36,959 bases of DNA from a virus (IMGVR_UViG_3300045973_001487:1-36959), one strand, 5' to 3'. Shown: positions 624 to 36,959, counted from the first letter of the stretch. Notes: generated from the letters alone by a model not told the origin. A program made the numbers and translations.

Positions 624-2054
624 TTATAGCACTTCGCCTGCGTGGTCAGCCAGACGCGAACGTTCGCCGCGTTGTAACGTGATGTGACCGGAATGCGGCC
701 AGCCCTTGAAGCGATCGACGACATAGGTCAGGCCGGAACTGCCCTCGGTCAGGTAAGGCGTATCGATTTGCGCAATATTACCCAGGCAGACCACCTTGGT
801 GCCGGGGCCGGCGCGGGTGACCAGGGTTTTCATCTGCTTCGGCGTCAGGTTCTGCGCCTCGTCGATGATCAGGAATTTCTTCAGGAAAGTCCGGCCACGC
901 ATGAAGTTCATTGACTTGACCTTGATCCGCGAACGGATAATGTCATTGGTTGCCGCCTTGCCCCAGTCGCCGCCGTAGGCGCCACTGCTCGCTTCATCGG
1001 TATGGGTGAGGACATCGAGGTTGTCTTCAAGCGCGCCCATCCACGGTGCCATCTTTTCTTCCTCGGTGCCGGGCAGGAAGCCGATGTCTTCACCCACCGG
1101 CACTGTGGCGCGGGTCATGATGATTTCGGCAAACAGCTTGGTTTCGAGTACCTGGGTCAGGGCGGAGGCCAGCGTCAGCAGGGTCTTGCCGGTACCAGCC
1201 TGACCAAGCAGGGTGACGAAGTCGATGTCGGGATTCATGAGCAGGTTCATCGCAAAATTCTGCTCGCGATTGCGCGCCATGATGCCCCAGACAGCGTTCT
1301 TCGGATGCGTGTAGTCGATCAGCGTTTCGAGGACGGCGGTCTTGCCGGCGGTTTCTTTGACGATGGCCGAAAAGCCGTCCTTTTCCAGCCAGACGCATTC
1401 ATTGACGAGCATCTGCGGGCAGAGCGGGCCGGTCACCTTGTAGTAGGTCCGGCTATCCTTCTTCCACGATTCCATGCCCTTGCCGTGTTTGTCCCAGAAA
1501 TTGTCGGGCAGGGCGCGGGTGCCGGTGTACAGGATGTCGGTATCCTCAAGCACCTTGTCGTTGAAATAATCTTCGGCGAGCAGGTTGAGGGCGCGCGACT
1601 TGATGCGCATGTTGATGTCTTTCGACACCAGGATGACCGGGCGCTTGGGGAATTTCTTCTGGAGGTGGATGACCACCGAGAGAATCTGGTTGTCGACCTT
1701 CGAGGTCGGCAGCCCCTGCGGCAGATCGGCGCTGATCGCTTCGGTCTGCAAGAAGAGACGGCCGCTGGCCAGCTTCTTCGATGGGGTGTAGAGATCGATG
1801 CCCAGGTCGATGTCGTCGTCGCCATTGCCGGCGAGCAGTTCATCAAGCGTGCGGGAGGTCTGGCGGGCATTGCGGGCAATTTCGGACATGCCCTTCTTGT
1901 GGTTGTCGAGTTCTTCCAGCGTCATGATGGGCAGGAAGACGTCATGCTCCTCAAAGCGGAAAAGACTGCTTGGGTCGTGCATCAGCACGTTGGTATCGAG
2001 GACGAAAATCTTGGTAACGGCGGGCTTCTTGATGGCTGCGGGCTTGCGCGGCAT
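624..2054 (-). CDS. phoH: PIN domain-PhoH family ATPase
   Basis: The 476-residue protein has an N-terminal PIN nuclease-like domain (IFVLDTNVLMHDP at 16-28, with further acidic residues at about 48-50 and VSKDINMR at 143-150). A PhoH P-loop ATPase domain follows, with Walker A GQAGTGKT at 284-291 and Walker B LLIDEAQ-like IIDEAQ near 396-401. Length and order match the YlaK/PhoH2-type PIN-PhoH proteins, which are linked to RNA handling and stress. It is a host chromosomal gene beside the bcp remnant, and the ATG at 2054 is the first good start. The exact cellular role of this class is not settled. Confidence 0.92.
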   Translation of the reverse strand: MPRKPAAIKKPAVTKIFVLDTNVLMHDPSSLFRFEEHDVFLPIMTLEELDNHKKGMSEIARNARQTSRTLDELLAGNGDDDIDLGIDLYTPSKKLASGRLFLQTEAISADLPQGLPTSKVDNQILSVVIHLQKKFPKRPVILVSKDINMRIKSRALNLLAEDYFNDKVLEDTDILYTGTRALPDNFWDKHGKGMESWKKDSRTYYKVTGPLCPQMLVNECVWLEKDGFSAIVKETAGKTAVLETLIDYTHPKNAVWGIMARNREQNFAMNLLMNPDIDFVTLLGQAGTGKTLLTLASALTQVLETKLFAEIIMTRATVPVGEDIGFLPGTEEEKMAPWMGALEDNLDVLTHTDEASSGAYGGDWGKAATNDIIRSRIKVKSMNFMRGRTFLKKFLIIDEAQNLTPKQMKTLVTRAGPGTKVVCLGNIAQIDTPYLTEGSSGLTYVVDRFKGWPHSGHITLQRGERSRLADHAGEVL

Positions 2055-2253: not shown

Positions 2254-2868
2254 TCAGGGTTTAGCTTTTTGCTGTGACAATTTCATACCCAAGTTTCTGG
2301 CAAGGGTGACGGAAACATATCCAAGACTCATCATGGCAAGAGTATCTTCGCCAAATTCTGCGATGGCAGCATTAACGCAAAATGAAACGACGCGACAATT
2401 CCATTTTTCGTATGGCCCACTTGCGTCTATTCGATCAACTGACATTTTGAAAGGGTGTCTTGATTTATCTATGACTAGCGGTATATTTGTCAATGAGCAC
2501 CTGCCTTGAGATTCAAGAATTAAATCTGAGTGATCTTGCTCAGTGAGATGAAAGCCAATTCCACGCTTTTTTGCACTTTGCTTCAATCCGCTATATTTCT
2601 GCTTTATAAATCCTGAACTTTTCATTTCGGAAAATTTTGCGTGCCATTCAGGATCGATTGACTCGATGACGTCAAGCAAATGAATTCCGGCTGCTTTTTT
2701 TGCGTTTAATTCGACGCCGTTTGAGTGCTCTGCAACAAATTTATCTCTAAACGAAATGGCCTTTGCCACATCGGTTTCCTTGGTCGATTTCCGTATGCGC
2801 TCAGTTCTAATGCGAATATCGATCCAGTAAATTTCATTTCTTTTAAACAGACCCCAAGTCTTTTTCAT
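2254..2868 (-). CDS. Integrase-associated protein: arm-type N-terminus joined to an HNH-like domain
   Basis: The N-terminal 30 residues (KRNEIYWIDIRIRTERIRKS) mirror the N-terminus of the adjacent integrase (KRGEVWWIDIRHQGRRIRRS), which is the arm-site-binding region. The C-terminal half has C124, then SVDRIDASGPYEKWN at 143-157 and N166. This is the pattern of divergent HNH/endonuclease VII-like domains (DRID...GY...N...N), although a Cys-His zinc set is not evident. The gene starts inside the end of the integrase gene (ATGA overlap) and is the last gene before the attachment site. Its sequence is AT-richer than its neighbours, which suggests transfer. It may nick DNA, help recombination or be a homing-type passenger; no known gene is recognised. 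Confidence 0.7.
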   Translation of the reverse strand: MKKTWGLFKRNEIYWIDIRIRTERIRKSTKETDVAKAISFRDKFVAEHSNGVELNAKKAAGIHLLDVIESIDPEWHAKFSEMKSSGFIKQKYSGLKQSAKKRGIGFHLTEQDHSDLILESQGRCSLTNIPLVIDKSRHPFKMSVDRIDASGPYEKWNCRVVSFCVNAAIAEFGEDTLAMMSLGYVSVTLARNLGMKLSQQKAKP

Positions 2869-3926
2869 TTTGTGCCCGTTGTCACGTTGTTAGGCACAAA
2901 TTTTAGCACGTTCGATAGGACTGGTGGCTTCACGTTATTGACGAATCCGGCGACGAAAGATGGTGCAAGGTGGGCATAACGCATGACCATTTCTATCTTA
3001 GCCCAGCCGCCCAATTTCTGCAGTACCTCGAGCGGTGTCCCGGCCATGACATGCCAGCTCGCCCAGGTGTGCCGCAGGTCGTGCCATTTGAAATTCGTTA
3101 TCTCGGCTTTCTTCAGAGCTGCGTACCAGTGACAGTTGCTGGCTGCCGGGATGGGCTCTCCTTCTGATCCTGGGAAAACCCAGCGCGGATGTTTTCCGGC
3201 CTGCTCGGCCAGTATCTGCATCGCGTCATCATTGAGCGGAACGAGCAGCGACTTGTTTGTCTTCACGTTATCAGCATGGACCCAAGCCTGGCGCATTGCC
3301 TGATTGACCTGGACCCATTCCAGGTGTGTGCAGTTGTCTTCGCGCAGACCGGTGGCCAGGGTGAATCGTGCGCAGGCCTTCCATGGTTCGGGCAGTGCTG
3401 CGATCAGCGCCTGGTGCTCCTCGCCTGACAGGTATCTGACCCGGCCGTTCGGCTCTCGGCGCTTGGCAATGTCGGGAACAACCTTGAGCCATCCCCACCG
3501 TTGGGCTTTTCTGAGAATTTTACCGAGGATGGCAGAATGGCGATTGATGGTGCTCGGTGATGTTTTTCGGCCTGTCTTGTGATTGACGATCACGTTGGCC
3601 CGTTCTTCCAGAAGCGTGGCGATCAGATCGCCGGTGATCTCAGTGAGATCTTTGCCCTGCAGCCTGGGCGTCAGCCAGTCGAGCATCTGGGCATCGTGCC
3701 ACAAGCCTGGCCGTCCAGATTCTTCGGATAGAAACCGCTTGATGGCTTCCTCCCATGTGTGATCTGGGAGTTCATCAAGATGCTCTTCGCGCCATAGCTC
3801 CGCCTTCAGGCGGTCGTGCAGCTCTTGGGCCTGCTTCTTATTACCTGTTTGAGCAGATCGCCTAATTCGGCGTCCTTGATGGCGGATGTCGATCCACCAG
3901 ACTTCGCCACGCTTGATGATCGGCAT
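2865..3926 (-). CDS. int: Tyrosine site-specific recombinase (phage integrase)
   Basis: The 353-residue protein has an N-terminal arm-binding segment (EVWWIDIRHQGRRIRRS), a SAM-like core-binding domain (about 55-145) and a C-terminal catalytic domain. Catalytic residues visible are R195 in ATGLRED, a Lys near 222-225, H282 and R285 in HDLRHT, W308 replacing the second His in LGGW, and the nucleophile Y317 in MRYAHL. It integrates and excises the phage, here at bcp. It overlaps the HTH gene upstream by 121 bases and the HNH-like gene downstream by 4 bases, so the three are probably translated together. The ATG at 3926 gives the usual N-terminus for this group. Confidence 0.95.
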   Translation of the reverse strand: MPIIKRGEVWWIDIRHQGRRIRRSAQTGNKKQAQELHDRLKAELWREEHLDELPDHTWEEAIKRFLSEESGRPGLWHDAQMLDWLTPRLQGKDLTEITGDLIATLLEERANVIVNHKTGRKTSPSTINRHSAILGKILRKAQRWGWLKVVPDIAKRREPNGRVRYLSGEEHQALIAALPEPWKACARFTLATGLREDNCTHLEWVQVNQAMRQAWVHADNVKTNKSLLVPLNDDAMQILAEQAGKHPRWVFPGSEGEPIPAASNCHWYAALKKAEITNFKWHDLRHTWASWHVMAGTPLEVLQKLGGWAKIEMVMRYAHLAPSFVAGFVNNVKPPVLSNVLKFVPNNVTTGTK

Positions 3927-5784: not shown

Positions 5785-6020
5785 TCTGAGGACTCCGGTT
5801 CTTCCGGAAATCCATCAACTGGAAGGTAGGCGGCGTAAAGGTCGCTGGTGCACTTGCGGTAGGCAGCAGGGACATTGATGCGAAGGTCGTATCGGATAGT
5901 CTGGTGGGCGGCGCATGTTTCGCGCCGAGCGCACCACTCGCCGGCCATGTGGCCATGAGCGAGGCAACGATTGATGCCGGCATCAAGCGGCATTGGTATT
6001 GGGGTTGCGGTGAAGTTCAT
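5781..6020 (-). CDS. Small Cys/His-containing phage protein, unknown
   Basis: A 79-residue protein with CLAHGHMAGEWCARRETCAAH near residues 19-39. Three Cys and three His in that stretch suggest a small metal-binding knuckle. It overlaps the reverse transcriptase stop codon (ATGA) and the next gene, so it is probably cotranslated directly after the DGR. No function is recognised, but its position makes it a possible DGR accessory. Confidence 0.6.
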   Translation of the reverse strand: MNFTATPIPMPLDAGINRCLAHGHMAGEWCARRETCAAHQTIRYDLRINVPAAYRKCTSDLYAAYLPVDGFPEEPESSE

Positions 6021-7138
6021 GCGGATCTCCGATAAGTTTTGGTCATGTCTGATTTGATGCAGTGGCCACGGCCGCGCAAAACGTTGGCGATCTGGGTGCG
6101 GTCGTGGTGGCTATGGCTGGCCTGGCGAAGCAGACCGAAGTAACTGTTGCCCGTCTGGAATAGGTCGGCAACGTCGATGGACTCAAGGCGGCTGATCGCA
6201 TCATTGAAAGTGCGGCGCCGAAGGTTTCGGCGATGCGGCTTGATGACCTGGCCGACGAAGTCAATGCCGCGGTCGATGGGCTGCAGGATAGTTTTCTTGG
6301 GATTGATGCGAGCGGCTAGTCTGTCGGCAAGTAGCTGCTCGATCTTGGCCTTCGCATCATTCAGCCACCTGGGCGATTCATGCAGCAGCACAAAGTCGTC
6401 TACGTAGCGGATGTAGTGCTTGCAGCGCAGCTCGCGCTTCACGAACTGATCGAGAACGTCGAGATAGACGTTCGCGAAGAACTGGCTGCTCAGGTTGCCA
6501 ATCGGCAGGCCTTTGTGGGCCGGGTGGTTGGTCAGCCGCTTGTGCGCCGGTACCAGGGCCAGCATTTCCGGATCGCCGTGCAGTTCGTAGTTCTGGCGCG
6601 GGTCATGAAAAAGCACAGTTTCAGTTAGCTGCAGCCACCAGTGCTCAGTAATGTGGCGAGCAAGCAGACGCTGCAGGATGTTCTTGTCGATGCTGACAAA
6701 GAAGTTGGCCAGGTCGAGCTTCAGGTAGAAGGCTGGCTTCGTCCAGTTCTGGGTAATGCTACGGGCCTTGGATTCAAGGCGCTCGGCGGCGTAGAGCGTC
6801 CCGCGACCTGGTATGCAGGCGCATGAGTCGGCAATAAATCGGGCGTAGAAAGCCGGTGCAATATGGTTGTGCAGCAAGTGATGCACGATGCGGTCGCGGA
6901 ACTGTGCGGCCCATACCTCGCGGGCCTTGGGTCGCGTGATGACAAAGCAGATCGAGCGACCGGGTTCATAGCTTCCGTCTTCGAGTTCGTCATGAAGATC
7001 CCGCAGATTGCGTTCCAGGTTGGCTTCAAAGGCCATCGCACTGGCGCTGTTGCGCTTAGTACGCCGGCAGTCGAAGTAAGCCTGGGTCAGTTCGGTGAAA
7101 GTGAAATCAGCGGGCGCTTTCCAATCTGCGGACGGCAC
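6017..7138 (-). CDS. Diversity-generating retroelement reverse transcriptase
   Basis: From a GTG at 7138 this is a 373-residue reverse transcriptase of the DGR (Brt-like) class. An N-terminal block (TELTQAYFDCRRTKRNS, about 16-31) precedes palm motif A LKLDLANFF (139-147). The DGR-typical IGNLSSQ motif (213-219) stands where retroviral enzymes have a QG motif. The catalytic YVDD box is at 245-248. It would copy the TR RNA into adenine-mutated cDNA, working with Avd. The conserved sequence starts before the first convenient ATG (7036), so initiation at GTG inside the TR, or further upstream at the ATG at 7369 that overlaps the end of avd, is likely. The frame stays open through the whole TR. 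No maturase or group II intron domain is visible. Confidence 0.93.
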   Translation of the reverse strand: MPSADWKAPADFTFTELTQAYFDCRRTKRNSASAMAFEANLERNLRDLHDELEDGSYEPGRSICFVITRPKAREVWAAQFRDRIVHHLLHNHIAPAFYARFIADSCACIPGRGTLYAAERLESKARSITQNWTKPAFYLKLDLANFFVSIDKNILQRLLARHITEHWWLQLTETVLFHDPRQNYELHGDPEMLALVPAHKRLTNHPAHKGLPIGNLSSQFFANVYLDVLDQFVKRELRCKHYIRYVDDFVLLHESPRWLNDAKAKIEQLLADRLAARINPKKTILQPIDRGIDFVGQVIKPHRRNLRRRTFNDAISRLESIDVADLFQTGNSYFGLLRQASHSHHDRTQIANVLRGRGHCIKSDMTKTYRRSA

Positions 7139-7221
7139 GAGCGCGGAGCTCGTTGTTCTTGTGGTTGTTGTTCTGGTTGCCGTTGTTGAAGTTCTGATAC
7201 CAGGCGTAGCCGGAATCGGAC
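7122..7221 (-). repeat. DGR template repeat (TR)
   Basis: This 100-bp segment is the non-variable template. Read on the minus strand in the target frame it is rich in AAC/AAG codons and encodes NFNNGNQNNNHKNNELRARA. Asn codons give the widest range of residues under adenine mutagenesis. It lies between avd and the RT core, as in the Bordetella phage BPP-1 element. The VR copies differ from it only at template adenines. Bases 7122-7152 are identical in TR and all VRs and contain the inverted repeat CGAGC-GCGGA-GCTCG at 7138-7152. Confidence 0.95.
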
Positions 7222-7361
7222 CAATCGTGCTTTCTACGTCGCCTTGCCGACTATTCAGCAGGGAAACTGCGCCGGACCTTTCGCGGCTGCTGCCGGAGGT
7301 CTCCGTGATACGCATGTCGGTGGCCTTGTGAGCCAGCGGCACGACCAGATTGAATGATCGC

Positions 7362-7736
7362 TCAGTCATGACGGCCGTGGCCTCCATGATGCGGGCGAGA
7401 AGCGGACTTGCGCCACCCATTGGCCTGCTTGCCGATGCTGGTGCTTTTCTCGATAGCCTGGGCGTAGGCGCCCAGCGAGATGAGTTGCTTGTCCTTGGCA
7501 AGACGGATGAGCAGTTCTGCAACCTGCAGGCGCTCAAGCAGTTCCATCAAGTGCGGCTCTTTGTCCTGTGCGACATTGGCGCGAAACACGAGCACGGTGA
7601 TCTCGATGCACTCCATCGCGATCTTCTCACCGATGGTGCGCTTGTAGTCACGGTTCATGTTCTTGACCATGTCAGACGACAAGCCAAGCAGGTCATAGGC
7701 CGCTTTGTAGATGGGCAGGGTGGTATGGGTAGCCAT
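7362..7736 (-). CDS. avd: DGR accessory variability determinant (Avd), four-helix-bundle protein
   Basis: A 124-residue, all-helical protein (TTLPIYKAAYDLLGLSSDMV, then NMNRDYKRTIGEKI and LLERLQVAELLIRLAKD). Length, helical pattern and location between target VR1 and the TR match Avd proteins, which form a basic pentameric barrel that binds the RT and TR RNA and is needed for mutagenic reverse transcription. The C-terminus is Lys/Arg/His-rich (GWRKSASRPHHGGHGRHD), fitting nucleic-acid contact. It begins 18 bases after the upstream target gene. An ATG in the RT frame (7369) overlaps its end, suggesting translational coupling to the RT. Confidence 0.9.
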   Translation of the reverse strand: MATHTTLPIYKAAYDLLGLSSDMVKNMNRDYKRTIGEKIAMECIEITVLVFRANVAQDKEPHLMELLERLQVAELLIRLAKDKQLISLGAYAQAIEKSTSIGKQANGWRKSASRPHHGGHGRHD

Positions 7737-7754
7737 GCTGATTAAATGATCGAA

Positions 7755-8216
7755 TTACTCAATGATCAATCTGCGGACGGCACGAGCGCGGAGCTCGCTG
7801 CACTTGTGGTCGTAGCTCTGGCCGCCGTGGTAGAAGTACTGACACCAGGCGTAGCCGGAAACGGACTCATGATCCTGGCTTGACCAGTACCATTCAGGCT
7901 TGAACTGATCTTTCAGGTTGGCGTAGAGAAGGGATTGTTCGCGGCGGTCAGGGAGTTTGCCTTCCTGTTCGCCGGCCCACTGGACAGCATCATTCCAGTT
8001 GGCGCTTTCGAGTTCGCCGGGCAGGAGCACCAAGTGATAGCTTGGCTGGCCGTCCTGGCCGATGATGAGGCCGGCGTAGTGTTCGCCCGGCTGCAGGGTG
8101 ATGAGCGCCTCGGGGAAGTGATACACCGCCGTGGCATGCTGCGACTTGAACTGCTCGATCAGTTGGCCAATACGATTGTGCTCGGCTTCGATGGCATCAA
8201 GGGTGACTGTGGTCAT
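7755..8216 (-). CDS. DGR target protein 1 (C-type-lectin-fold variable protein)
   Basis: The 153-residue protein has a helical N-terminal extension (1-35) absent from the other two targets, then a DUF1566/Lcl-like CLec core: HLVLLPGELESANWNDAVQW, LPDRREQSLLYANL, WYWSSQDHE. The variable C-terminus is GYAWCQYFYHGGQSYDHKCS followed by ELRARAVRRLIIE. Residues in the NNGNQNNN stretch are diversified and the HK and ELRARAVRRL scaffold is fixed. There is no signal peptide. An AAGGAT site precedes the ATG. The DGR can rewrite its ligand-binding face; the ligand is unknown. Confidence 0.9.
   Translation of the reverse strand: MTTVTLDAIEAEHNRIGQLIEQFKSQHATAVYHFPEALITLQPGEHYAGLIIGQDGQPSYHLVLLPGELESANWNDAVQWAGEQEGKLPDRREQSLLYANLKDQFKPEWYWSSQDHESVSGYAWCQYFYHGGQSYDHKCSELRARAVRRLIIE
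7767..7866 (-). repeat. DGR variable repeat VR1
   Basis: This 100-bp copy aligns without gaps to the TR at an offset of 645. It differs at 13 positions, all template adenines (T on the given strand): TR positions 7153, 7156, 7157, 7166, 7169, 7171, 7177, 7178, 7184, 7187, 7193, 7198 and 7216. The 31 bp next to the gene end are unchanged. Confidence 0.95.
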
Positions 8217-8245
8217 GGTTGATCCTTGGTGAAATGGATAAATTA

Positions 8246-8605
8246 CTAAATGGGCAATCTGCGGACGGCACGAGCGCGGAGCTCGTTGGTCTTGTGGTTG
8301 AGGATCTGGTGGCCGTAGCTGAAGGACTGAAACCAGGCGTAGCCGGAAGCGGAGTGGTGCGTCTCATTGCTCCAGTACCAATCCTTCTTGAGCTGGTCGC
8401 GGTGGTTTGCCCACAGCATGGCTTGCTCGATGCGGGTCGGCAGATCGCCACCGATAGACTTGGCCCATTCCATCTGGGCTTCAAAGTTGGCATCGTCGTT
8501 GTCGCCCGGTAGGAGGATGACGTGGTACAGGTCTCCGGACTTGTCGCCGATGCTTCCGATATAGATTTCGCCCTTTTCAAGCGGCTGGATTTGAAGTTGT
8601 TGCAT
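8246..8605 (-). CDS. DGR target protein 2 (C-type-lectin-fold variable protein)
   Basis: A 119-residue CLec-type protein: IYIGSIGDKSGDLYHVILLP, a helix with EWAKSIGGDLPTRIEQAMLW, WYWSNETHH, then the variable end GYAWFQSFSYGHQILNHKTN and ELRARAVRRLPI. It shares the core layout with targets 1 and 3 but lacks the N-terminal extension of target 1. A strong AAGGAG lies 6 bases before the ATG, and the leader (CAAGGAGCAACC) resembles that of target 1 (CAAGGATCAACC), which suggests gene duplication. There is no secretion signal. Function is inferred only as a diversified binding protein. Confidence 0.9.
   Translation of the reverse strand: MQQLQIQPLEKGEIYIGSIGDKSGDLYHVILLPGDNDDANFEAQMEWAKSIGGDLPTRIEQAMLWANHRDQLKKDWYWSNETHHSASGYAWFQSFSYGHQILNHKTNELRARAVRRLPI
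8255..8353 (-). repeat. DGR variable repeat VR2
   Basis: This 99-bp copy aligns to the TR at an offset of 1133. It has 11 differences, all at template adenines (TR positions 7156, 7168, 7169, 7171, 7178, 7184, 7186, 7192, 7193, 7198 and 7216). The first non-adenine mismatch is at 8354, which marks the upstream end of the repeat. Confidence 0.95.
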
Positions 8606-8627
8606 GGTTGCTCCTTGGGTTAATTGC

Positions 8628-9350
8628 TCAATTCCACGCCGGCTGCGTGTCTTCCAGAAAATCGGCGAGCATACGGGTGGCGCAGGCCGTCAAATTGATC
8701 TCTTTGCCGGCGAATTCGATGTGCAGGGAGCCGTCGATGCTGATCATGGCGAATAGCTTGGGCGGCTTCGCTGAGTCGGTATTGATGAAGATTTCAGGCG
8801 CAACGTGCGTCGGTCCGGCAGCGAATGGACCGGGGAATGGTTCTTCACCTGGCCACTGTATCTTTTCGTCGGAGCCGCCCGAAGCAGGCATTTCGTCCTG
8901 CATCGGGCGCTCGACAACGGCCAGAACCTCGGTAGAGGGCAGTTCTCCCACAACGTGGTTTTCCGATTCCTGGCTGCGGATGATATTGGCCCCTCCGTCC
9001 GCTGGGGTCTGCTTGACGTTGCTCTTCTTTTCGACCTTGGCTTTTGCTTTTGCCATGGCCTCGGTGATCTGTTTTTCTGCCTTTGCGGCCTTTTCTTGCT
9101 TCAGTGCTGGTGCTGCCATGATGGATTCGCCAGCGATCTTGATCAGATGCGCCCGGCCTGCGGGGGTAATCTGCCAGGCGACTTCCTTTGTAAGCGGTTC
9201 CTCGGTCTGCTTGACCTGGCCGGCTTGCTTCATGGAATTGCACGCCCAGCGCATTTTGTTGCGGTCGATCCCGGTCTTGTGCTCGAGGTCATCGTAGGTG
9301 CTGGTGCCCAGGGCGACCAGCGCCTGCAGGATGGTTTTGACTTGGCTCAT
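8628..9350 (-). CDS. Winged-helix-like phage protein, unknown
   Basis: From the ATG at 9350 the protein has 240 residues. The first 75 look like a winged helix (VKTILQALVALGTSTYDDLE, IDRNKMRWACNSMKQAG, WQITPAGRAHL). A Lys/Ala-rich coiled segment follows (QEKAAKAEKQITEAMAKAKA), then a Pro/Gly/Glu-rich linker, and a C-terminal segment (LFAMISIDGSLHIEFAGKEI) that looks like a small beta domain. An open frame extends to 9446 but that extension is not protein-like. It lies between DGR targets 2 and 3 in the same operon. It could be a regulator or a structural adaptor; neither can be shown. Confidence 0.65.
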   Translation of the reverse strand: MSQVKTILQALVALGTSTYDDLEHKTGIDRNKMRWACNSMKQAGQVKQTEEPLTKEVAWQITPAGRAHLIKIAGESIMAAPALKQEKAAKAEKQITEAMAKAKAKVEKKSNVKQTPADGGANIIRSQESENHVVGELPSTEVLAVVERPMQDEMPASGGSDEKIQWPGEEPFPGPFAAGPTHVAPEIFINTDSAKPPKLFAMISIDGSLHIEFAGKEINLTACATRMLADFLEDTQPAWN

Positions 9351-9360
9351 GGTGAATGTC

Positions 9361-9669
9361 TCAGTAAGAGTGGGGAATGACGTTCTGCAGGTCGTGATCA
9401 ATCCAGGTGTCGCGCTCAAGGCTGTGGGCCTGCCGATTGAATGCATGGTCTTTGTGAAGATTGGCGACCATCAGGCGGTGTGTGGCGGCATCAATCTCGA
9501 CATCAAGAGCCGACCGGGCGTCGAGCAGGTTGGAAAGCATCTGTTCGAGATCGGCGACGTGCTGCCTGGCGATGGTCAAGTGGTCACGCTGGGCGTAAAG
9601 CATTGCAAGGCCGAGTGCAGTGATGGCGATAGCCGTCACAAGCAGAACAATAACGATGATGGTGGTCAT
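9361..9669 (-). CDS. Small single-pass membrane protein
   Basis: The 102-residue protein starts with a strong N-terminal transmembrane helix (IIVIVLLVTAIAITALGLAM, about 4-23), followed by a soluble helical region rich in Leu/Ala/Asp that may form a coiled coil (IARQHVADLEQMLSNLLDAR). AAGGAG lies 8 bases before the ATG. It sits within the DGR operon between two target genes. The function is unknown; membrane anchoring is predicted from the sequence. Confidence 0.65.
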   Translation of the reverse strand: MTTIIVIVLLVTAIAITALGLAMLYAQRDHLTIARQHVADLEQMLSNLLDARSALDVEIDAATHRLMVANLHKDHAFNRQAHSLERDTWIDHDLQNVIPHSY

Positions 9670-9683
9670 GGAAACTCCTTGAA

Positions 9684-9890
9684 TTAAGCAGCGGCGGGAA
9701 GGGCTTCAAGGATGGCCAGGTGGCGGTGCTTGACCTTCACGGCGATCTTGAAGAAGCCAGCTGGGACGACTGGCGAGACAACGACCTTGCTGCCGTTGCT
9801 GATCAGGTGCATTCCGGCTGCTTTGGCGACCTGGGCAAGTTCTTCGACGGTGGTGTCGTCGGTGAAGGCGAGGATGGTGGCGGCGATCAT
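9684..9890 (-). CDS. Small phage protein, unknown
   Basis: From the ATG at 9890, which follows TAGGAGGAAAC (an excellent ribosome site), this is a 68-residue alpha/beta protein (ATILAFTDDTTVEELAQVAK, then AGMHLISNGSKVVVSPVVPA). A longer frame to 9932 lacks such a site. It belongs to the leftward DGR operon. No family is recognised. Confidence 0.6.
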   Translation of the reverse strand: MIAATILAFTDDTTVEELAQVAKAAGMHLISNGSKVVVSPVVPAGFFKIAVKVKHRHLAILEALPAAA

Positions 9891-9898
9891 GTTTCCTC

Positions 9899-10081
9899 CT
9901 AGTGGTTGGTCAGCTTGCGCAGCCAGGCGCAAAGCTGGTTTGGGTCGGTGCGATAGCCAAGCTGTATTACCCGGCCAGCAACGCGGCGGCAGACCTTGAA
10001 GCGATCACCGGCTGGGATCACGAAGCAAGTGCTGCCCTGGGTAATTTCACGGGCCTTGGCGAGTGTTTCGGCGGTAGTCAT
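9899..10081 (-). CDS. Small phage protein, unknown
   Basis: A 60-residue protein with MTTAETLAKAREITQGSTCF, a beta-rich middle (VIPAGDRFKVCRRVAGRVIQ) and a short helix CAWLRKL. It lies 24 bases after target 3 and 8 bases before the next gene, in the same direction and within the DGR operon. No function is recognised. Confidence 0.55.
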   Translation of the reverse strand: MTTAETLAKAREITQGSTCFVIPAGDRFKVCRRVAGRVIQLGYRTDPNQLCAWLRKLTNH

Positions 10082-10105
10082 GGCTGGTCAAAAATTACTG
10101 AATGA

Positions 10106-10459
10106 CTAAATGACCAATCTGCGGACGGCACGAGCGCGGAGCTCGTAGTCCTTGTGGTGGTAGTACTGGTGGCCGCTGGTGAAGTACTGATACCAGGCGT
10201 AGCCGGAAGCGGACTCAGTGTTTGACCAATACCAGGAAGGCTCAAACTCTTCTTTAGCAGTGGCGTACATCAGCGCCTCCTCGACGCGGTTCGGGAGATC
10301 GCCGCCTTGCTTGGCGGCCCAGTTCATGGATTTCTTCCAGGTGCCTTGGAAAGTGCCTGGGAGCAGGATGATGTGGGTGGTGGTGCCGTCAGCAGCGACG
10401 ATGCCGCCTATGTAGCGTTCGTCTTCGGCGAGGTCGGGTATGAAGCGGGTGTTGGTCAT
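10106..10459 (-). CDS. DGR target protein 3 (C-type-lectin-fold variable protein)
   Basis: A 117-residue CLec-type protein: ERYIGGIVAADGTTTHIILL, MNWAAKQGGDLPNRVEEALM, WYWSNTES, then the variable end GYAWYQYFTSGHQYYHHKDY and ELRARAVRRLVI. It is the first gene of the leftward operon, directly behind the promoter at 10492-10520, with GGAGG upstream of its ATG. Tyr, His and Ser dominate the diversified sites, a composition common in DGR binding faces. It has no signal peptide or tail-attachment domain, so it is either cytoplasmic or carried by a partner. Confidence 0.9.
   Translation of the reverse strand: MTNTRFIPDLAEDERYIGGIVAADGTTTHIILLPGTFQGTWKKSMNWAAKQGGDLPNRVEEALMYATAKEEFEPSWYWSNTESASGYAWYQYFTSGHQYYHHKDYELRARAVRRLVI
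10115..10214 (-). repeat. DGR variable repeat VR3
   Basis: This 100-bp copy aligns to the TR at an offset of 2993. It has 10 differences, all at template adenines (TR positions 7154, 7157, 7166, 7169, 7172, 7178, 7183, 7186, 7193 and 7216). One extra matching C precedes it at 10114. Confidence 0.95.
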
Positions 10460-10491
10460 GGCGGGTTGCCTCCGTGTTGTTGATGGAGGCG

Positions 10492-10520
10492 ATTACACAC
10501 CATGTTTAACTACAAGTCAA
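10492..10520 (-). promoter_or_regulatory. Strong sigma70-type promoter of the leftward DGR/int operon
   Basis: On the minus strand TTGACT (10520-10515) and TGTAAT (10497-10492) are separated by exactly 17 bases. Transcription would start near 10485 and enter target 3 at 10459. No other comparably good promoter was noticed between here and the integrase, so this may be the equivalent of a phage early left promoter. Confidence 0.75.
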
Positions 10521-10529
10521 CATGGTGTG
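10496..10529. promoter_or_regulatory. Operator-like inverted repeat over the leftward promoter
   Basis: CACACCATGTT (10496-10506) and AACATGGTGTG (10519-10529) are perfect 11-bp inverted arms with a 12-bp spacer. The repeat covers the space between the -35 and -10 boxes and touches both. A repressor dimer or pair bound here would block the promoter; CI or Cro encoded nearby are the obvious candidates. Confidence 0.7.
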
Positions 10530-10540
10530 AATTTATGAGC

Positions 10541-10562
10541 AAAAAAAACCGCCAACCGGCGG
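10541..10562 (-). terminator. Rho-independent terminator after the repressor/moron transcript
   Basis: CCGCC (10549-10553) and GGCGG (10558-10562) pair around AACC. On the minus strand the stem is followed by eight T residues. It separates the cI-moron transcript from the DGR promoter. Confidence 0.85.
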
Positions 10563-10579
10563 CGACTTTGCTTTTAACT

Positions 10580-11104
10580 TTATATGTCCTTTGCTTTTTC
10601 ATGTCTTTGTTTAGCGAAATCTGAAAGAGCTTCGCTGCTTGTTATAGACAACACGCCTTTGCTGATGGATGAACTGTACTTTTCAACGGAAAGAACTTCA
10701 TATTTCGTTGATGCAGAACAGGTTTCATTGATGAATTTTGCTGAAAATCTGTTCTCGACCAACGATTTGGTGCATTTTAATGACCTATATTTGCTTGATA
10801 TTGCCGTTTTTATATCATCAAAATATTCAGAGTCGAATGAAAACAAAATGTGATTAGATTTTTCTTTTTTGTCGAATTTTACAATTGCGCTTTCGATAGT
10901 TTGACCACCTATAGTAATGGGGGAAGATCCAAAACATGAGATAAGTCCTTCGGCATTTGGCCTACATGTATATGCCGATGATATTTTTGAAAACTCTTCT
11001 ATAGTTAATCCTATTCCGTGGCCTTTGATGCTGAAATCATGAGCATGTGACGTGTTCGCAAAGGCAATGAATGGAACAATTGCTATCAGCTTTAGACGAA
11101 TCAT
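10580..11104 (-). CDS. Exported small protein cotranscribed with the repressor (moron)
   Basis: Starting at the ATG at 11104, which overlaps the repressor stop (ATGA), the protein has 174 residues. It has a signal peptide MIRLKLIAIVPFIAFANTSH with likely cleavage after SHA. The mature part has several Cys residues (YTCRP, ISCFG, LKCTK, ETCSA) that could form two disulfides, consistent with a periplasmic protein. The gene is AT-rich compared with the phage backbone, which suggests recent acquisition. Linked to the lysogenic repressor, it should be made in the lysogen, so superinfection exclusion or lysogenic conversion is plausible but unproven. Confidence 0.7.
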   Translation of the reverse strand: MIRLKLIAIVPFIAFANTSHAHDFSIKGHGIGLTIEEFSKISSAYTCRPNAEGLISCFGSSPITIGGQTIESAIVKFDKKEKSNHILFSFDSEYFDDIKTAISSKYRSLKCTKSLVENRFSAKFINETCSASTKYEVLSVEKYSSSISKGVLSITSSEALSDFAKQRHEKAKDI

Positions 11105-11802
11105 TCGTCCTCCCATTTACCAATTATTTTTCCTACAATTGAGAATTTGTCGTAGATCGGTGGGTGGCTATCATTGAGAGGTCGAAGCCAAGACCTTCCG
11201 GCATCCTGGGTAAATACCTTGAATGTGACATCATGACTGCCATCTAGCCTCGCTATAACGCGATCACCATTTGTTGGCATTCGTTGCTCAGGATCGACAA
11301 ATATGATGCATCCATCTGGATAGCTTTTGCCATATCGGCTTGTCATCGAGTCACCTGAAACGCGCAATGCGAAAACGTGTGTCGATTGTTTGATGAAAGG
11401 AAGCCATCGCTCGGCATATCCTGGATCGTATATATCTACGGCTTCTGACCACACACCAGCTTGCACCCATGAAATAAGAGGGACATGGCCCATTACTTCA
11501 CGGGCCGGTTGAACGTTAGATGTGTATTCTGCCGTTTTTGCTGCTTCTATAACATACGACAAAGGTAAGGTTTTACCAATCATCTCGCCTTCGCCTGATT
11601 TAATCCATGATGCATCGCACCCAATGATTCGAGCGCATTCAACTGCTCCCTCAAAAGAAACCCCGCGCGTCCTCCAGTTTCCTATTTTTTGATCGGAAAC
11701 GTCGAAGCCAGCCTCGGTTAGTCCTTTGGCTACCTCTGACTGAGTAGTCCATCCCTTGAGTTGTTTGGCGGCAAGCAGTAGTCGGTCGAAGTCTGGTTTC
11801 AT
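11101..11802 (-). CDS. CI-like phage repressor with S24 self-cleavage domain
   Basis: The 233-residue protein has an N-terminal HTH (QSEVAKGLTEAGFDVSDQKI, then GNWRTRG) and a C-terminal LexA/CI peptidase S24 domain. Visible functional residues are the cleavage site A115-G116 (VQAGVW), Ser152 in SGDSM and Lys195 in DVTFKVF. It should keep the prophage silent and be inactivated by RecA-stimulated self-cleavage after DNA damage. It is divergent from the Cro-like gene, with operators between them. The weak or absent ribosome site matches a nearly leaderless mRNA. Confidence 0.93.
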   Translation of the reverse strand: MKPDFDRLLLAAKQLKGWTTQSEVAKGLTEAGFDVSDQKIGNWRTRGVSFEGAVECARIIGCDASWIKSGEGEMIGKTLPLSYVIEAAKTAEYTSNVQPAREVMGHVPLISWVQAGVWSEAVDIYDPGYAERWLPFIKQSTHVFALRVSGDSMTSRYGKSYPDGCIIFVDPEQRMPTNGDRVIARLDGSHDVTFKVFTQDAGRSWLRPLNDSHPPIYDKFSIVGKIIGKWEDE

Positions 11803-26001: not shown

Positions 26002-26802
26002 ATGAATGAGTTGGCTCTTTTCGCAGGCGCTGGTGGTGGAATACTCGGCGGAAAATTGCTTGGATGGAGAACCGTCTGCGCAGTTGAGCGTAATGCCTAC
26101 TGCGCACAAATTCTTGCACAACGGCAGAACGATGGATGCCTCCAGCCTTTCCCGATATGGTCTGACGTGTGCAGTTTTGACGGACGGCCATGGCGAGGCA
26201 TTATTGATGTCGTATCTGGCGGGTTTCCGTGCCAAGACATCAGTATTGCCGGTAAAGGCAAAGGTCTCGACGGGGATCGTTCCGGCCTCTGGTCTGAGAT
26301 GGCCAGGATCATTGGCGAAGTACGACCAAGATACGCGTTCGTGGAAAACAGCCCCATGCTTACTTCTCGGGGACTCGGAAGAGTTCTCGGCGACCTGGCC
26401 GAACTCGGGTATGACACGGACAGGGATGTCTTATCCGCGTCAGACATTGGCGCCTGCCAGCAAAGGAAACGCCTCTGGATTGTGGCGAACTCCGTCAGCG
26501 ACGATTGTGGATTCAAAGTCCAACGTGACGAAGCTCACAGGGAGAACACCGAAAGACCCACAAGTAGGACTGGCGGATCAGGTAGTAGCTGCCGACCGCT
26601 TACTATGGATTCCCCCAACGGAAAGCTCCAGCCCTTTGGACTTGGACGCAGATTTGCTGAGCCGTGGGCAAATGAACCCCCAGTGGGGAGAATGGCTAAT
26701 GGGGTGGATTATCGGGTGGACAGACTTAAAGCCATTGGGAATGGACAAGTTCCATCAGTGGCGGCAACAGCATTCCGAATGCTTTCTAATCCCCCAAACT
26801 GA
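26002..26802 (+). CDS. DNA (cytosine-5) methyltransferase
   Basis: The 266-residue enzyme has all main C5-MTase blocks: I FAGAGGG (7-13, SAM binding), IV GGFPCQDIS (C77 is the catalytic nucleophile), VI VENSP (114-118, ENV-like), VIII QQRKRLWIVA (153-162), and X GNGQVP (246-251). The target recognition part (about 170-235) is short, as in phage enzymes. It probably protects phage DNA from host restriction; its site cannot be read from the sequence. The gene is a separate cassette with its own regulator before it and terminator after it. Most of its length is also read in another frame (next entry). Confidence 0.95.
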   Translation: MNELALFAGAGGGILGGKLLGWRTVCAVERNAYCAQILAQRQNDGCLQPFPIWSDVCSFDGRPWRGIIDVVSGGFPCQDISIAGKGKGLDGDRSGLWSEMARIIGEVRPRYAFVENSPMLTSRGLGRVLGDLAELGYDTDRDVLSASDIGACQQRKRLWIVANSVSDDCGFKVQRDEAHRENTERPTSRTGGSGSSCRPLTMDSPNGKLQPFGLGRRFAEPWANEPPVGRMANGVDYRVDRLKAIGNGQVPSVAATAFRMLSNPPN

Positions 26803-35951: not shown

Positions 35952-36444
35952 CTTCCAGGTTGCAATGATGATGCTCGACAAGGCTGAAGGCGTCTTGTCG
36001 AACCACCCGAACGATAAGGGCGGCCTGACCTATCGCGGCATCGCTCGTAAGTTTCACCCGACGTGGCCAGGATGGGCGCTCGTTGATCGCGATGAGCCAG
36101 TGCCGGATAGCCTGGTAACCAGCTTCTACCAAAATATGTTCTGGACCCCGATCAGGGGCGAGAAGATCACCAACCAGCGTGTCGCCTACGCGCTGCTCTC
36201 ATATGCGGTAAATGCCGGCGTGGAGTCGGCCGTGGAGATGGCGCAGCGGGTGATCTGCGTGGGCATTGATGGCAAAGTAGGTCCAGTAACGACGTTCGCG
36301 CTGAACTCGACAGACCCAGATTTGTTCCTCTCCCGGTTCGCCCTGGCACGGATTGAACACCGGGTTGAGGTATGCAAGAAAGACCCCAGCCAGAAAATAT
36401 TCCTAATTGGCTGGCTGTCACGAGACCTTCTGGAGGCGAAATGA
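35944..36444 (+). CDS. Endolysin, GH108-type glycoside hydrolase
   Basis: From the ATG at 35944 the protein has 166 residues. The N-terminal block DKAEGVLSNHPNDKGGLTYR plus GI is the signature of GH108 lysozyme-like domains, with the catalytic Glu at about 15 in AEG. AYALLSYAVNAGVESAVEMA and VGIDGKVGPVTTFAL form the C-terminal PG-binding-3-like half. It would hydrolyse cell-wall glycan at lysis. No signal peptide is present, so a holin must release it; the overlapping neighbours provide candidates. Confidence 0.88.
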   Translation: MADFQVAMMMLDKAEGVLSNHPNDKGGLTYRGIARKFHPTWPGWALVDRDEPVPDSLVTSFYQNMFWTPIRGEKITNQRVAYALLSYAVNAGVESAVEMAQRVICVGIDGKVGPVTTFALNSTDPDLFLSRFALARIEHRVEVCKKDPSQKIFLIGWLSRDLLEAK

Positions 36445-36959
36445 ACTGGCTCGATACTCTTAAAACACTGGCTCCGACTGTCGCGTCAGCACTTGGTGGT
36501 CCTTTGGCCGGCGTTGCTGTCACTGCTATCGGTGAATTGCTCGGCATGTCTGAACCAACGCAGGACAAAATCAAGGCAGCTATCGAGAATGGGCAGCTTA
36601 CAGGCGAACAGGTTGCCGGAATTCGCCAGCTCGAGCTGAAGCTGACGGCTGAGGAAAAAGAGCGCGGGTTTCGCTATGTCGAACTTGAATTCAAGGATCG
36701 AGATAGTGCCCGCAAATTCAATACCGAAGGTGGTATCCAGGGGAAGCTGTTTGCCTTGTCCTTGATGCTGCTGGCCCTAACGCTTGGCGTCGAGGCTACC
36801 GTTCTGTTCAACGGCATCCCGAAATCGGTACAGGACATCGTTGCTGGCCGCGTGCTTGGCCTGATGGATTCAGTTGCTCTGATGGTGCTTGCGTACTACT
36901 ACGGGACATCGAGCGGTTCTGCCCGGAAAACTGAAATACTGAACGGGGTCGCAAAATGA
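36441..36959 (+). CDS. Holin-like phage membrane protein
   Basis: From the ATG at 36441 (ATGA overlap with the endolysin stop) the protein has 172 residues, ending at the last base. It starts with an amphipathic segment (LAPTVASALGGPLAGVAVTA), then a charged helix (LELKLTAEEKERGFRYVELE), then two hydrophobic helices (LFALSLMLLALTLGVEATVL and LMDSVALMVLAYYYG). This layout is common in phage holin-like proteins next to endolysins. The stop codon is complete at the window edge. Confidence 0.8.
   Translation: MNWLDTLKTLAPTVASALGGPLAGVAVTAIGELLGMSEPTQDKIKAAIENGQLTGEQVAGIRQLELKLTAEEKERGFRYVELEFKDRDSARKFNTEGGIQGKLFALSLMLLALTLGVEATVLFNGIPKSVQDIVAGRVLGLMDSVALMVLAYYYGTSSGSARKTEILNGVAK

Follow-up and report, generated by a model that had tools for sequence, protein, structure and literature searches.

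A diversity-generating retroelement with one template and three small C-type-lectin targets in the integrase-to-repressor region of a phage lineage

A complete diversity-generating retroelement (DGR) occupies the minus strand at 6017-10459 of the window, by which we mean the whole stretch of DNA analysed here, a linear virus record of 36,959 nt (IMGVR_UViG_3300045973_001487:1-36959). Taking the evidence as a whole, we are confident that the best explanation is a complete DGR from an active lineage of temperate proteobacterial phages, in which a single template repeat (TR) supplies three C-type-lectin targets. The order of transcription is T1 - T2 - T3 - avd - TR - RT, where T1 to T3 are the targets and RT is the reverse transcriptase, and four small genes unrelated to the targets separate T1 from T2. 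The original prediction of RT, TR, avd and three genes bearing variable repeats (VRs), all on one strand in target-avd-TR-RT order, is borne out, with every part found on the minus strand. Its span of 6017-10497 holds for the element and fails at the T1 boundary, since T1 ends at 10459 and a promoter-like inverted repeat lies at 10497-10528. The sequences in front of T1 are:

10492-10520, minus strand: promoter-like TTGACT-17-TGTAAT of the T1 operon, a consensus match only
10497-10528, minus strand: perfect 10-bp inverted repeat overlapping the T1 promoter-like sequence
10545-10569, minus strand: terminator-like stem upstream of the T1 promoter-like sequence

A consensus scan does not list the promoter-like sequence because its -10 hexamer has no A at position 2. 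The inverted repeat was considered as a repressor operator used at other places and rejected, being a single site within the window.

Results

Variable repeats differ from the template only at its adenines

A repeat of about 100 nt occurs in four copies within the window, one TR and three VRs:

7118-7221 (repeat alignment also from 7122), minus strand: TR, inside the RT reading frame
10111-10214, minus strand: VR1, 12 differences from TR, all at TR A
8255-8353, minus strand: VR2, 11 differences from TR, all at TR A
7767-7866, minus strand: VR3, 13 differences from TR, all at TR A

The 36,959-nt window yielded no fifth copy; its record stops within the tail module (ORF 36372-36959 is open-ended), and a further VR may lie beyond it. 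In an unconstrained alignment of the repeat core, TR adenines account for 36/36 differences between VRs and TR, an outcome with a chance of about 1e-19 by our own arithmetic, given a TR that is ~29% A. The window holds TR/VR pairs that differ only at TR adenines, one of several features by which a DGR is recognised. Translated in the target frame, TR reads SDSGYAWYQNFNNGNQNNNHKNNELRARAVRRL; the Asn positions that it encodes are the main variable ones in T1-T3, and the SGYAW and ELRARAVRRL stretches are invariant across the three targets.

The accessory gene and the template RNA lie between the last target and the RT gene:

7362-7736, minus strand: avd, accessory variability determinant, 124 aa (phrog_3206 'Avd protein of DGR', 1.7e-32)
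7218-7400, minus strand: Rfam RT-15 RNA, the template-RNA 5' leader, from the avd 3' end to TR (164.5 bits, E 1.3e-40, gathering score 82)

The product of avd scores 47.2 bits against Pfam bAvd, above the cut-off of 40, and matches NF033474 at 7.9e-13, yet below the cut-off of that model. RT-15 is likewise annotated in Cruim01, a phage of the same family. The minimum-energy fold of the template RNA is no more stable than that of shuffled sequences (z 0.03), the strong Rfam covariance match notwithstanding.

The template is nested within the reverse transcriptase gene

The RT gene and its signals are placed as follows:

6017-7315, minus strand: DGR reverse transcriptase, 432 aa (phrog_1423, 7.2e-114; RVT_1, 1.8e-16)
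6482-6502, minus strand: RT motif IGNLSSQ (aa 272), DGR-type motif 4 [IVL]GxxxSQ
6395-6406, minus strand: RT motif YVDD (aa 304)
7313-7327, minus strand: RT ribosome-binding site and ATG, AAGGCCACCGACATG, in frame with RT in 87/88 relatives

The original prediction hinged on an RT that does not group with retrons or group II introns. In a comparison with the PDB, the best solved relative of the window RT is 8ub7 (E 5.6e-33), which we take to be the structure of the BPP-1 DGR RT (bRT); a group II intron RT reaches only 6e-10. Confusion with the RT of a defence system (DRT, Abi or retron) is conceivable insofar as the RT domains match many DRT, retron and group II models; however, all NCBIfam matches of the window RT to defence-RT and group II models fall far below the curated cut-offs, the RT bears IGNLSSQ and is accompanied by Avd and TR/VR pairs, and BPP-1 bRT is the best solved match. 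The TR/VR evidence refutes the defence-RT reading, to which we assign practically no probability.

An RT of 506 aa, read as an ORF from a TTG, was rejected, as comparison of 88 relatives places the start at the ATG at 7315 (432 aa); TR therefore overlaps the RT gene, an arrangement that corresponds to group 3 in the DiGReF classification (PMC3521204). The AAGG...ATG upstream of TR is conserved, and its frame with RT is kept in 87/88 loci despite 16 different distances to the RT domain. In nearly all loci the RT frame stays open across TR. The nearest in-frame ATG lies inside TR in many Pseudomonas-type relatives and just 3' of TR in Haboob-type relatives, and in one locus, L051, a frameshift separates the RT start from the RT domain. 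A conserved protein N-terminus was considered and rejected: the segment from ATG to TR gives 0.218/0.252/0.262 for the three codon positions, with no third-position excess, against 0.253/0.181/0.479 after TR. The N-terminal extension of RT therefore looks tolerated rather than selected as protein.

Three small lectin-like targets belong to conserved slots

The targets are three small genes:

10106-10459, minus strand: T1, first target, 117 aa, C-type lectin / Lcl_C-like, VR at its 3' end (phrog_4245, 1.5e-11)
8246-8605, minus strand: T2, second target, 119 aa (phrog_4245, 4.8e-8), slot-B ortholog in relatives
7755-8216, minus strand: T3, third target, 153 aa, N-terminal helix and C-type lectin domain (Lcl_C, 2.8e-6, below cut-off)

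T1 and T2 also match Lcl_C below the family cut-off (E 2.3e-5 and 5.6e-6, respectively). The structure of T3 predicted by AlphaFold2 (pLDDT 92) consists of an N-terminal helix and a C-type lectin fold, with the Legionella Lcl C-terminal domain as its best fold match (E 9.8e-5, TM 0.61 on the target). For T1, model confidence is lower (pLDDT 84) and a structure search gave no fold match below E 0.001; the putative assignment of T1 to the C-type lectins rests on homology. The prediction of three paralogous lectins on one template agrees with the Lcl_C and phrog_4245 matches of the targets, the fold of T3, the single TR and the three VRs.

Among 262 targets extracted from the family, most are shorter than 220 aa. 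A search for signal peptides or membrane anchors on targets found that 8/252 pass a marginal hydrophobicity limit, none of them clearly. A conserved partner gene was also sought, and the candidate, a winged-helix gene adjoining T2, was dropped, being present in a minority of relatives only (3/144 and 20/144 with two queries).

On a framework tree of the targets built with the VRs left out (239 rows, few columns), the targets fall into three slot-specific groups, with 33 changes on the tree vs 103 in shuffles, and T3 orthologs have the N-terminal helix in common. Four relatives (L164, L169, L172 and L173) retain two or three targets and have lost RT and TR. As several phages keep two or three targets in this state, targets may retain a use once they are no longer diversified. 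A further locus, L160, keeps its targets together with avd and an RT remnant; all five are frozen target cassettes. The three VRs might instead reflect recent duplications of one target rather than three maintained roles: the targets are paralogous and share their 3' end, and the array described below is possibly common to them by descent. The grouping of paralogs by slot across many phages, the helix on T3 orthologs and the pairs and trios that outlast RT loss all argue against recent duplication, which we therefore consider very improbable.

A large family in which one template feeds all targets

Scans of IMG/VR returned 17 relatives with the window RT, 448 with the Magia RT (80 kept) and 42 with the Haboob RT, and GTDB genomes contained six, including a locus in Dechloromonas sp. 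CZR5; with duplicates removed, the family set comprises 164 loci. Counting as VRs only runs with mismatches confined to TR A, two VRs are found in 88 loci, three in 40 and four in one, such that 129/164 are multi-VR. Across these loci, the distance to TR is about 550-610 nt from the end of VR3 and about 1030-1300 nt from the end of VR2, and the first VR lies 1.4-9.5 kb from TR. Phages Cruim01 (L024), LPPA56 (L025) and Haboob (L026) carry multi-target DGRs with two or three VRs, the targets of which are annotated only as 'hypothetical protein'. Two other records, OK094664.1 (a Shewanella phage) and OP650936.1 (a 'Hujiaoplasma' phage), are of equal length (47,902) with near-equal DGR matches, and may be one phage with one host misassigned.

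Over a fixed 76-nt segment of TR, with a selection independent of A-only mismatches, 300 VRs of multi-VR relatives were found to be altered at 47.3% of TR A compared with 0.8% of C, 1.25% of G and 1.35% of T. Pairs of close relatives show the same bias. Haboob and L113 are identical in a 940-nt RT region and in TR, but two of their VRs have diverged at 20/31 and 17/30 A sites, with 0 and 1 differences elsewhere; the VRs of L033 and L034 differ at 10/26 and 14/26 A sites and at 0/62 others. VR differences between related prophages that were unbiased towards TR adenines had been named as grounds for rejecting the original prediction; those observed lie almost wholly at TR adenines. It is in close relatives that aligned sequences show recent diversification, with two or three targets altered together. 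The closest relative of the window, L005, differs from it in TR by one C-to-T difference, and the L005 base is present in all three L005 VRs; therefore, one template feeds all targets.

Variation in situ was sought in a metagenome set (L008-L011), in which a single VR base separates L009 and L010 from L011, not enough for analysis. The loci L030 and L012 are otherwise near-identical and differ by a 23-nt deletion inside VR2 (L030 near 7890; L012 6782-6804).

These comparisons bear on whether the element is dormant or decaying and retained by hitchhiking, as might be suspected from the four relatives that keep two or three targets without RT and TR and from the L051 frameshift. In the window, however, RT, Avd, TR and the three target frames are intact and the VRs carry 11-13 adenine changes and no others, and close relatives have diversified recently; we regard dormancy as improbable.

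An ATT array in place of a hairpin behind the variable repeats

Behind each VR lies a VR-specific array of ATT triplets with 8-bp periodicity:

10092-10118, minus strand: ATT array 3' of VR1, ATTGGTCATTTAGTCATTCAGTAATTT
8232-8258, minus strand: ATT array 3' of VR2, ATTGCCCATTTAGTAATTTATCCATTT
7744-7770, minus strand: ATT array 3' of VR3, ATTGATCATTGAGTAATTCGATCATTT

The array is ~24 nt long and lies mostly 3' of the target stop codon, and 0 occurrences of its pattern are expected by chance in the window. In the family, the array is found in 236/245 VR flanks vs 9/111 TR flanks, and TT pairs spaced 8 nt apart average 3.04 per 30-nt VR flank compared with 0.96 in shuffles. It is common to all three slots, though the genes that follow differ, and some targets without RT and TR have lost it too (a small sample). 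Its similarity between slots is explained in part by common descent of the target paralogs.

Efficient retrohoming in BPP-1 depends on 24 bp behind the VR that contain a GC-rich hairpin, and hairpins of this kind have been reported for other phage VRs (PMC3240598). No such hairpin is present at the three VRs of the window, and one was found in 7/183 VR flanks of its lineage vs 26/62 in Pseudomonas-type loci. The hairpin is typical of phage DGRs and not universal, and its lack does not exclude membership among DGRs. We propose that the ATT array marks the target for retrohoming, perhaps by working as an easily melted element.

The targets lie between integrase and repressor genes

Two genes on the same strand bracket the DGR:

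2865-3926, minus strand: integrase, on one side of the element
11101-11802, minus strand: CI-type repressor, on the opposite side from the integrase

The primase, terminase, portal, capsid and tape measure genes lie on the strand opposite the targets. In relatives, the integrase is downstream on the same strand in 42/46 loci and the repressor upstream in 19/19. Early leftward operons of temperate phages such as lambda encode mostly proteins that act on the host cell. Because the targets sit in the integrase-cI operon, opposite the structural genes, and such operons mostly act on the host, we lean towards a non-virion binding role for the targets, which we infer to be expressed with the early operon.

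The competing view is classical tropism switching, in which the three proteins would be virion receptor-binding tips encoded apart from the tail genes and host range would be widened as in BPP-1. Tail proteins make up the majority of annotated viral DGR targets (PMC8144416), the targets here have a C-type lectin fold, and the authors of the Magia study raise a change of host range as a possibility (PMC7883833). Against this, at 117-153 aa the window targets, like most of those extracted, fall short of the length of a tail-fibre fusion. They belong to the integrase-cI operon, whereas terminase, portal, capsid and tape measure are encoded on the other strand, and in relatives the position relative to integrase and repressor is kept. 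A role in host tropism is not supported by target location, and we consider tail tips possible and rather unlikely. The earlier proposal of three coexisting versions of a binding face in one phage therefore stands as three targets on one template and does not carry over to three tail-fibre tips.

Elsewhere in the window, a PhoH2-like protein (624-2054, minus strand; phrog_2765, 5.5e-107) adjoins the HNH endonuclease and integrase genes; a 178-aa protein with a signal-peptide-like N-terminus is encoded between T1 and the repressor (10580-11116, minus strand) and, among TR-bearing loci, is present in the window only; and a DNA methyltransferase gene (26002-26802, plus strand) lies between the capsid and tail modules.

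Discussion

The mechanism that would account for these observations begins with reverse transcription of a TR-carrying RNA by RT and Avd, with errors opposite adenines, a chemistry that we infer from BPP-1. In each of three separate small C-type-lectin genes, the cDNA would replace the 3' end, altering mainly AAC codons of the binding face. Targets would be recognised through a ~30-nt 3' stretch common to TR and VR and, probably, through the ATT array that is absent from TR.

The BPP-1 DGR (mtd, avd, TR, brt) is alike in its RT-Avd-TR chemistry, adenine mutagenesis, C-type-lectin face and gene order, and its RT is homologous. BPP-1 has one tail-fibre target, a hairpin/cruciform behind the VR and a TR upstream of brt; the window differs in its three early-operon targets, its ATT array and a TR within the RT frame. 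The novelty implied by setting three targets against the single target of BPP-1 does not survive, as multi-target DGRs account for 14-29% of the DGRs in catalogues (PMC3521204, PMC6642488) and as many as eight targets have been recorded (PMC10743442).

The DGR of Burkholderia phage Magia (NC_070954; PMC7883833) is of the same lineage, with target(s)-avd-TR-RT in an integrase-repressor operon and short lectin-fold targets; its RT and spacer genes diverge from those of the window. The published account gives two targets only, gp47 and gp57 (PMC7883833), whereas we find in Magia (L022) a third, gp46 (9512-9976, 'hypothetical protein'), with its own VR and 11 differences, all at TR adenines. In Pseudoalteromonas phages ACA1 and ACA2, TR is translated as an N-terminal extension of RT, called uncommon there; unlike the window, these phages have a single antireceptor target in the tail module (PMC10612066). 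The two-target DGRs of gut phages (tentaclins) also use one TR for several C-type-lectin targets per phage, and differ in having two target topologies, one with Ig domains (PMC10743442).

DGRs, multi-target DGRs and the lineage of Magia were thus known already. As far as the literature searched shows, what is new is the size and regularity of the lineage, its slot-conserved targets, the concerted TR marker, the lineage-wide nesting of TR in RT with the frame preserved, and the ATT array replacing the hairpin. Less expected are small, unfused, slot-conserved targets in an integrase-to-cI operon, outside the tail module, with an ATT array and not a hairpin. Our tentative suggestion, for which we claim only a modest likelihood, is that this DGR lineage does not serve the virion: one template would keep two or three slot-specific early small lectins diverse in or on the host cell, with the targets found via the ATT array and not a hairpin. 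Non-virion lectins of this kind, if real, would point to host take-over, counter-defence or the exclusion of rival phages.

In this family (164 loci examined, hundreds in IMG/VR), which includes the deposited phages Haboob, LPPA56, Cruim01 and Magia, a single template can be shown to supply two or three targets. The family makes testable both what hypervariable phage proteins other than tail fibres do and what marks the target for retrohoming where there is no hairpin.
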